Below are positions 7,768 through 29,723 of a stretch of 64,000 nt of DNA, piece after piece. Numbering within the stretch: the stretch's first letter is position 1; every line of letters starts with the position of its first letter. The DNA comes from Corallium rubrum (taxonomy: Eukaryota > Cnidaria > Anthozoa > Scleralcyonacea > Coralliidae): contig OZ036016.1 of assembly GCA_964035015.1 (NCBI GenBank), forward strand, positions 195,001 to 259,000, in the 5' to 3' direction. Made by a program: the position numbers and the translations under genes. The notes below the pieces were generated by a model. It was given only the letters and a program-made list of their open reading frames with translations, did no database searches and was not told the DNA's origin.

Positions 7768-7818
<51 letters not shown>
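7768..7818. repeat. (TA)n microsatellite
   Basis: Uninterrupted AT dinucleotides directly abutting the left arm of the foldback at 7820. Confidence 0.95.
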
Positions 7819-7823
<5 letters not shown>

Positions 7824-7850
7824 TAAAGTTCAAAGACTCAACAGGTTTGA

Positions 7851-7922
7851 TTAGACATTTTTATTACTATTTAGTTTCGTGCCACACGTATTGTGTGGTA
7901 CTCTTCAGATAAAATGGTCTAA
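7851..7922 (-). ncRNA. Type I hammerhead ribozyme candidate (left arm)
   Basis: Exact inverse complement of the plus-strand motif at 8093-8164, so it has the same core and helices on the minus strand. See that entry for the fold. Confidence 0.6.
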
Positions 7923-8092
7923 TGACTAAGATGTAGTTACAGAGATGATTATATAAGTGTCTAGGTTAGGGATTGTTTGGAAATTCTTAACGTTCATTCG
8001 TTAGTTTGAATATTCAAAGGTTTTTGACCGTTTTCTTAGTGATATAGTATGTACATGGATATATATCCATCTCTGTAACTACATCTTAGTCA

Positions 8093-8164
8093 TTAGACCA
8101 TTTTATCTGAAGAGTACCACACAATACGTGTGGCACGAAACTAAATAGTAATAAAAATGTCTAA
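8093..8164 (+). ncRNA. Type I hammerhead ribozyme candidate (right arm)
   Basis: Core CUGAAGA (8107-8113, fits CUGANGA) and GAAA (8137-8140). Stem II 8114-8136 pairs GUACCACAC with GUGUGGCAC with one A-C mismatch and a 5-nt loop. Stem III is short: A8140-C-U pairs with A-G-U8149 around loop AAAU. Predicted cleavage is after A8150 in a GUA triplet. Stem I pairs 8093-8106 with 8151-8164 (12 of 14 pairs, with a central 2-nt internal loop as needed for loop contacts). A very short stem III is usual in Penelope-type hammerheads. Seen by eye only; not folded by computer. Confidence 0.65.
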
Positions 8165-8248
8165 TCAAACCTGTTGAGTCTTTGAACTTTAACTATAATA
8201 TGCTCTGGATTCCCATCGAGCACTCTGCCAAAGGTTTTTACAACATAT

Positions 8249-8444
<196 letters not shown>

Positions 8445-14289: not shown

Positions 14290-14680
14290 CATTTCACTCG
14301 ATTACATAGCATGTTCTAAGGATTTAGGGTGAAGGAAAATTCGAGTGTAGAATATATACATTTTAAGACCAAACCGAGAGCAGTTGCGAAAAATGCAACT
14401 ACACAGGCCCTCCGGCAGGAATTGAACCCACGACCTTGCGATTCTAGTGCAATGCTCTGACCACTGAGCCACGGAGGCCGTTGCCGAGAGCTTGATCGCG
14501 AGTTCTGTATATATAATAAGGTGGTAATGCCAGGAGAGAATTGGGTATATTATAAATGATATTGGGCATTTCACTCGATTACATAGCATGTTCTAAGGAT
14601 TTAGGGTGAAGGAAAATTCGAGTGTAGAATATATACATTTTAAGACCAAACCGAGAGCAGTTGCGAAAAATTCACCCTAA
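14290..14680 (-). repeat. tRNA-like SINE of the 277-bp family (minus copy)
   Basis: Same unit as the tandem at 29229-29850, here on the minus strand; the tRNA-like core is 14405-14479. The end of the unit (CCTAAATCCTTAGAACATGC) is repeated inverted at 14677-14696, so the right edge forms a small palindrome before the TA array. Confidence 0.75.
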
Positions 14681-29372: not shown

Positions 29373-29446
29373 GGCCACCATGGCTCAGTGGTCAGAGCAT
29401 TGCACTAGAATCGCAAGGTCGTGGGTTCAATTCCTGCCGGAGGGCC
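29373..29446 (+). repeat. tRNA-like core, unit 1
   Basis: Cloverleaf-like: TGGCTCAGTGGTCAGAGC A box, anticodon-like loop CTAGAAT in a TTGCA/CGCAA stem, and GGTTCAATTCC B box. The first acceptor strand (GGCCACC) no longer pairs well with CGGAGGGCC. Confidence 0.65.
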
Positions 29447-29649: not shown

Positions 29650-29723
29650 GGCCTCTGTGGCTCAGTGGTCAGAGCATTGCACTAGAATCGCAAGGTCGTG
29701 GGTTCAATTCCTGCCGGAGGGCC
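29650..29723 (+). repeat. tRNA-like core, unit 2
   Basis: As unit 1, with GGCCTCTG at the 5' side pairing better with CGGAGGGCC. Putative anticodon AGA in loop CTAGAAT. Tandem context argues for a SINE head rather than a tRNA gene. Confidence 0.65.

Follow-up and report, generated by a model that had tools for sequence, protein, structure and literature searches.

Outward-facing hammerhead motifs in a head-to-head pair of 5'-truncated Penelope-like retroelement copies within (TA)n in Corallium rubrum

The canonical EN-containing Penelope-like retroelements (PLEs), namely Penelope of D. virilis, Poseidon_Ac/PAc, and Penelope of Adineta vaga, are described in the available portions of two reports as carrying reverse transcriptase (RT) and GIY-YIG-like motifs and as inserting into AT-rich targets, with copies that are 5'-truncated and show head-to-head inverted pLTRs, a tail at one end, and a hammerhead near the pLTR-ORF junction (PMC3846280; PMC11167929). 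For the inverted repeats of Penelope, the head-to-head arrangement with the 3' ends outward is given in the portion seen as the most frequently observed one (PMC3846280). That PLEs can carry ribozymes and inverted repeats, with or without a tail on one side, is already known. The family at the locus presented here resembles these elements in each of the above respects and, going by the published descriptions seen, differs from them in several others: its tail is 62 nt rather than 30-40 nt long, its target is (TA)n, and its hammerhead has an internal loop in stem I and a 3-bp stem III closed by a tetraloop, whereas PLE hammerheads are described without helix III or tertiary contacts. Likewise, the PLE literature calls the tail optional, whereas one end is tailed in 24 of 25 pairs of the present family. 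The minimal type I hammerheads of PLEs and Terminons have the type I layout, the core, the very short stem III, and the place in the pLTR in common with the present ones, which are set apart by their CUGAAGA core, their 9-position stem II, and a score of 16 bits in Rfam Hammerhead_1. A review available in part names PLEs as ‘likely candidates’ for the mobilisation of retrozymes and calls the role of minimal hammerheads ‘a mystery’ (PMC7761336). The integration of PLEs, the role of their hammerheads, and the mobiliser of animal retrozymes are the questions that the findings below touch.

The window, that is the whole 64,000-nt stretch of C. rubrum DNA that was analysed, contains an element of this known kind. 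The original prediction, made from the letters of the window, had described a palindrome at 7820-8195 with a hammerhead in each arm, and this palindrome is present base for base; CUGAAGA, GAAA, the stem II with one mismatch, the 3-bp stem III, the GUA triplet, and the internal loop of stem I were all found where they had been placed, and the interpretation proved largely right. The palindrome is made of two 5'-truncated PLE copies lying head to head in (TA)n, with their 3' ends outward and a hammerhead in each (Table 1). It had been taken for an inverted pair of terminal repeats, and the head-to-head inversion stands, but the arms are the 3' ends of two truncated copies and not two LTRs of one element. 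Positions 8060-8069 are common to both arms (a 10-nt overlap), and the junction is itself palindromic (ATGGATATATATCCAT). In a genome search the left arm was 100% identical over 250 nt to the C8 and C15 copies.

Table 1. Coordinates of the palindrome, its flanks, and its parts within the window.
Feature	Positions	Strand	Basis
(TA)n tract, target side adjoining the tail-less (S) end	7769..7819		sequence; the same flank defines the S ends of other copies
Left arm, tail-less (S) end: 250 nt from the 3' part of a 5'-truncated PLE copy	7820..8069	-	arm mapping
Right arm, tailed (L) end: 3' part of a second, more strongly truncated PLE copy	8060..8193	+	arm mapping
Type I hammerhead motif, left arm; minus-strand cleavage predicted after A 7865	7850..7923	-	descriptor and fold
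Type I hammerhead motif, right arm; predicted cut after A at 8150	8092..8165	+	descriptor and fold
Tail, 52 nt (62-nt tail in other copies); begins the next tandem unit	8194..8245	+	sequence
Bulged tail hairpin, UGCUC-inner stem-UC-GAGCACUC	8201..8225	+	sole R1 model match in the window
(TA)n-rich tract, target side adjoining the tailed (L) end	8246..8412		sequence

The identity of the element follows from its other copies in the genome (474 Mb in 312 contigs searched). The first 250 nt of the palindrome have at least 89 matching stretches (40 of 241 candidates scored), and in the first set read, 12 loci with both ends, the ends face outward in all 12 over spans of 0.46-3.9 kb. Among three long copies listed for their ORFs, two (L010 and L011) have coding pieces outward on both sides and the third (L009) is rearranged. 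An ORF piece of 507 aa in L011 matches the RT profile of PADLOC (E 7.2e-06, 24.3 bits) and contains, by regular expression, YRDD and a VIY...YIG...R...H stretch, which are taken here to be reverse transcriptase and GIY-YIG-like motifs. Neither a reverse transcriptase nor a nuclease turned up when the ORF pieces were compared with Pfam, NCBIfam, PHROGs, and PDB, and the putative C-terminal GIY-YIG endonuclease is seen as the regular-expression motif, with no profile match. The full Penelope element carrying the same repeat, for which a genome search had been proposed, thus exists in the sense that other copies of the terminus flank interiors with an RT match and GIY-YIG-like motifs. The family further shows the PLE hallmarks of a pLTR with a type I hammerhead and of 5'-truncated tandem or head-to-head copies with a tail at one end.

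In the right arm, the 5' side of stem I (8092-8106, plus strand) leads into CUGAAGA (8107-8113), stem II (8114-8136; 9 positions with one A.C mismatch and the loop AAUAC), and GAA (8137-8139). These are followed by stem III (8140-8149; 3 bp with the loop AAAU), the cleavage-site A at 8150 within the GUA triplet, and the 3' side of stem I (8151-8165), which pairs through 7 bp, a 2x2 internal loop, and 6 bp; the minus-strand copy is placed in Table 1. A type I descriptor drawn up with the motif already in view (CUGANGA, stem II, GAAA, a 3-6-bp stem III, NUH, stem I) fits exactly two places in the 64 kb with both strands scanned, which are the two arms, and one place in 300 simulated windows with the dinucleotide frequencies of the window. 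By descriptor and fold, the CUGANGA / GAAA / NUH core with three helices is present in the arms. The covariance search with the Rfam hammerhead, on which the prediction was to be checked, turned out less favourably: at the gathering score no hammerhead was found in the window, and at a lax threshold both arms match Hammerhead_1 (RF00163) with 16 bits, under the cut-off of 34, at E 0.66. For a single arm, the hammerhead fold has a predicted energy of -16.3 kcal/mol, 0.2 above a minimum-energy fold (-16.5) that is not a hammerhead; the fold z-scores are -3.5 for 8090-8166, -3.1 for the left copy, and only -0.9 for the longer stretch 8078-8195. The RNA of the whole palindrome has a predicted minimum of about -246 kcal/mol as one long hairpin, against about -16 for one hammerhead. 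It is therefore doubtful whether RNA of the full element, whichever strand it comes from, would cleave itself as expected; cleavage would be likely only for an RNA that holds a single arm. Rfam microRNA matches on the palindrome score far under the cut-off and were attributed to the long hairpin.

The copies end in two ways. At an S end the last element base (CTTTAAC) is followed directly by (TA)n, whereas at an L end it is followed by a tail that can reach 62 nt and then usually by (TA)n. The next tandem unit begins with the tail, which in L028 continues into sequence matching the N-terminal coding piece of L010; a fixed target site was considered for the tail and rejected on account of this continuation. 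Script-based classing of 85 ends in 75 fetched loci gave 34 S, 44 L, and 7 other ends. These loci contain 34 outward pairs, of which 29 have both ends S or L, and 28 of the 29 are mixed, one being L+L and none S+S; for 30 of the loci the tail had served as the search sequence, a choice that favours L ends. Separate genome-wide end lists (at most one mismatch, all places listed, neighbours within 25 kb paired) gave 47 S ends (3 in the reversed control) and 48 L ends (none in the control). Mixed S+L ends occur in 24 of the 25 outward pairs formed from these lists, the remaining pair being L+L, and the number 24 was reached in none of 100,000 shuffles; one of the 24 pairs spans 20 kb, and for 45 of the 95 ends the lists contain no partner. 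As a nearly strict rule, an insertion has one end with a tail and one without.

The two arms of an insertion are also related in sequence. Over the terminal 92 nt, arms of one insertion differ by 0.0158 per base against 0.0275 for random pairs (33 pairs, of which three diverged ones were left out to give 30), a value as low being found in none of 10,000 permutations; when the comparison was extended beyond the shorter arm, 800 of 5,000 permutations were as low. The closeness of the arms at their termini therefore points to one RNA or one source locus for both. Mapping covered 14 elements, of which four (L009, L010, L011, and L013) were set aside as complex, leaving 10 simple pairs, with L015 counted among them despite a small deletion in its right arm. 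The S arm is longer in seven of these pairs, equal in one (L017), and shorter in two (once by 6 nt). At the junctions, the arms overlap by 1-14 nt in eight pairs, while gaps of 1 and 4 nt separate them in the other two.

The copy family, the coding interiors, the (TA)n flanks, the pairing of one S with one L end, the variants shared by the arms, and the junction overlaps were all observed directly, and they are best explained, with a probability put at roughly 0.75, by PLE insertion in (TA)n through two target-primed cDNAs that were joined head to head by microhomology. The PLE would insert into (TA)n, and both strands of the broken target would prime reverse transcription of the element RNA. 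One cDNA would begin internally, immediately 5' of the tail hairpin, and give the tail-less S end, and the other would start about 50-60 nt further 3' in the RNA and give the tailed L end. Both cDNAs would be 5'-truncated (250 and 134-136 nt), and the joining of their 5' ends head to head through the 10-nt common stretch would leave an outward-facing hammerhead in each arm. The purified PLE protein PAc, according to the part of the report available, cleaves both strands, extends them, and initiates at a pair of neighbouring internal RNA sites, which delimit the tail (PMC11167929). Some points count against this explanation, namely the L+L pair, the 45 unpartnered ends, the profile and PDB searches with neither reverse transcriptase nor nuclease, and the PAc starts themselves. 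For these the same part describes no difference in start site between the strands and no homology to the target; in the present family, unlike PAc, both start regions contain UAUA facing the (TA)n target.

Other routes to an inverted pair have to be weighed against double priming. If the element were a DNA transposon or a MITE whose long terminal inverted repeats held the hammerheads by chance, its inverted ends of about 250 nt, its size variants, and its TA flanks would be accounted for. This reading was rejected as scarcely credible in view of interiors that encode reverse transcriptase, arms truncated at different places, ends that differ by the tail in 24 of 25 pairs, and a tail that runs on into coding sequence. 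Self-priming snap-back is the less improbable of the two. One cDNA or antisense RNA would fold back at its truncated end and copy itself into an inverted pair, as was proposed for Penelope of A. vaga on an antisense template (PMC3846280, in the portion available). The palindrome at the junction in the window, the one pair with arms of equal length (L017), and the 11 of 33 pairs whose arms are identical over the terminal 92 nt are all in its favour. However, in the seven simple pairs with a shorter tailed arm, that of the window included, the tailed arm has the tail in addition and lacks sequence of the other arm; neither arm is therefore a plain copy of the other, which counts against a simple snap-back and makes this route improbable beside two target-primed cDNAs.

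A different doubt concerns the hammerheads, which might be decaying relics with no role in the present copies, so that any claim of cleavage would be empty. Among 47 distinct copies, 34 have an intact core and 13 a changed one, with U4 replaced by C in seven. The U4 change occurs in both arms of the C46 pair and of the C12 pair, and copies with a damaged core were therefore still inserted, as would suit relics. This agrees with the in vitro insertion by PAc, which is independent of hammerhead cleavage in the part of that report seen (PMC11167929). Two pairs with two-sided change were counted within the family of the window element, a number attained in 320 of 500 shuffles, and the long hairpin predicted for the whole palindrome would likewise fit a loss of function. 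As evidence against it the original prediction had named the lack of a hammerhead covariance hit together with no cleavage in vitro, or core substitutions without compensating helix changes in other copies. The lack of a hit at the Rfam cut-off and the 13 changed cores, together with a family covariation not above shuffles, bear out this concern in part. Against relics stands the rarity of core changes other than at U4, which amount to 6 of 470 cells compared with 104 of 2256 in the stems and 33 of 611 in the loops, in rows that are related and not independent. Moreover, seven other hairpin-bearing families or subfamilies, the retrozyme included, appear to keep the core and layout with different pairing stems. 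Because of these families, which were compared with no shuffle control, the hammerhead interpretation is still called supported at the level of sequence, and the relic reading is held to be rather unlikely.

The tail contains a bulged hairpin of the form UGCUC-inner stem-U[C/U]-GAGCACUC. A search pattern fixing GCTC and GAGCACTC yielded 10 distinct hairpin forms in the loci, and because of this pattern the outer stem is constant by selection, which the inner stem is not. The 10 forms, among which T1, T3, and T4 are relatives, were aligned with MAFFT under a hand-written structure. Two-sided changes were found in 12 of 80 cells, all in three inner pairs (0 of 500 shuffles), and the covariation score was 0.411 against 0.106 (0 of 500 shuffles), while the number of pairs with a two-sided change, three, was attained in 71 of 500 shuffles. 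The aligned forms suggest that the tail hairpin has compensated, covarying inner stems. The hairpin model (R1), which includes the own sequence of the window family, has only one match in the window, at 34.8 bits; in the loci, which overlap and total 299 kb, it has 97 (E <= 0.5). Forms outside the set from which it was built were found in L026, L044, and L064 (28.3-32.9 bits), twice in a retrozyme (25.2 and 25.1 bits, E 0.002), and in L069, where the outer stem shows an exchange of G-C to A-U (20.4 bits, E 0.03). A strict hairpin pattern has 342 matches in the genome and none in the reversed control. In 5 of 11 loop types, that of the window family included, (TA)n starts mostly 25-38 nt downstream of the hairpin (the usual value being 31), and in the other 6 it lies further off or is absent within 160 nt.

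Hammerheads accompany many of these hairpins. In the 150 nt upstream of 28 hairpins chosen from the 97 matches, overlapping loci included, a C[TC]GANGA core is present in 17 and absent in 11, with junctions or repeats interrupting some of these 11 upstream stretches. The best-fitting hammerhead was parsed in ten rows. In nine of them (the window family, its relative T3, two copies of T2, T5, T7, T11, T12, and the retrozyme) stem I has 4-6 contiguous pairs and stem III 3-4 bp by best fit, with no shuffle control, and the hairpin lies 13-53 nt from the cleavage site; in T8 (L046) stem I is unpaired in the best parse. A U.U mismatch opens stem II in T2, T7, T11, and T12. Across the families the hammerhead stems differ in sequence and yet pair in these best-fit parses. 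Around 1230-1480 of L030 an inverted pair of another family (tail TGCTCTAACTATATGTTATCGAGCACTC) lies in (TA)n; one of its ends is tailed and the other is not, and the family has its own CUGAAGA hammerhead. Tail-type hairpins with no hammerhead core in the 150 nt upstream occur at L068:4774-4874 (minus), L071:4766-4797, and L069:4001-4032, and in L068 two hairpins lie in tandem, as in the retrozyme.

Matches to RF00163 in the genome number at least 60, with at least 40 above the cut-off (74 of 61,716 candidates scored), against 0 of 14 above the cut-off in control genomes. The tail hairpin was found in none of five other Rfam hammerhead loci (L076-L080) within the 360-370 nt read, and therefore the link with the hairpin, which holds for the 231-bp retrozyme, does not extend to all hammerhead families. 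These five loci represent two more families at the Rfam cut-off, one with L076, L078, and L079 (CUGAUGAGACC...) and one with L077 and L080 (CUGACGAGUC...).

The retrozyme is an element separate from the PLE pair of the window. It is a small tandem repeat of 231 bp with a canonical type I hammerhead, found in dimers to long arrays; for example, the minus strand of L064:1872-2195 is a partial dimer with two canonical hammerheads and two tail-type hairpins in (TA)n, and tandem arrays elsewhere in the genome account for at least 114 matches (40 of 498 candidates scored). The non-LTR retrozymes of Metazoa, such as those of Acropora millepora with repeats of 220-240 bp, similarly have canonical type I hammerheads and form dimers to long arrays, and tail-type hairpins and (TA)n ends like those of the L064 repeat are not mentioned for coral retrozymes in the portion of that report available (PMC7229834). 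Within the repeat, the hammerhead is followed after 13 nt by one hairpin and then by a second hairpin of the tail type. The internal junction from hammerhead to hairpin has 277 matches in the genome (control 0), and the insertion ends in (TA)n right after the hammerhead stem, a pattern of end plus (TA)n with 308 matches (control 0). This end mirrors the S end of the PLE.

These features allow a joint reading, which is tentative and put at somewhat less than even odds. The bulged hairpin would act in cis to guide the PLE enzyme to its RNA and to the two start sites; in a dimeric complex one cDNA would begin 5' of the hairpin and the other 3' of it, so that each insertion would have exactly one end with a tail. 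The 231-bp retrozyme, with the same hairpin downstream of its ribozyme and an end in (TA)n at the corresponding place, would then be inserted by the PLE machinery. The literature searched, as far as its texts were available, contained neither a strict pairing of S with L ends, even a nearly strict one, nor a covarying tail hairpin, nor the presence of such a hairpin in a retrozyme and hence in common with PLEs. The common hairpin, the common (TA)n target, and the nearly strict rule of one tailed end make the questions named at the outset directly testable with a purified PLE protein and short RNAs.

Some minor observations concern long pairs and the rest of the window. Two outward S/L pairs, considered as a possible giant element, have their ends about 20 kb apart (G000:C12:10710644-10730757 and G000:C218:11505-31073). 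The flanks read from them have mainly PLE sequence in common, and the left arm of the C12 pair looks split by a long insertion near an internal TA-rich palindrome. In the window, three closely similar tRNA-like matches (14407-14478, 29374-29445, and 29651-29722; 38-48 bits) probably belong to one tRNA-derived SINE family, and a stretch similar to them lies in the right flank of L015.
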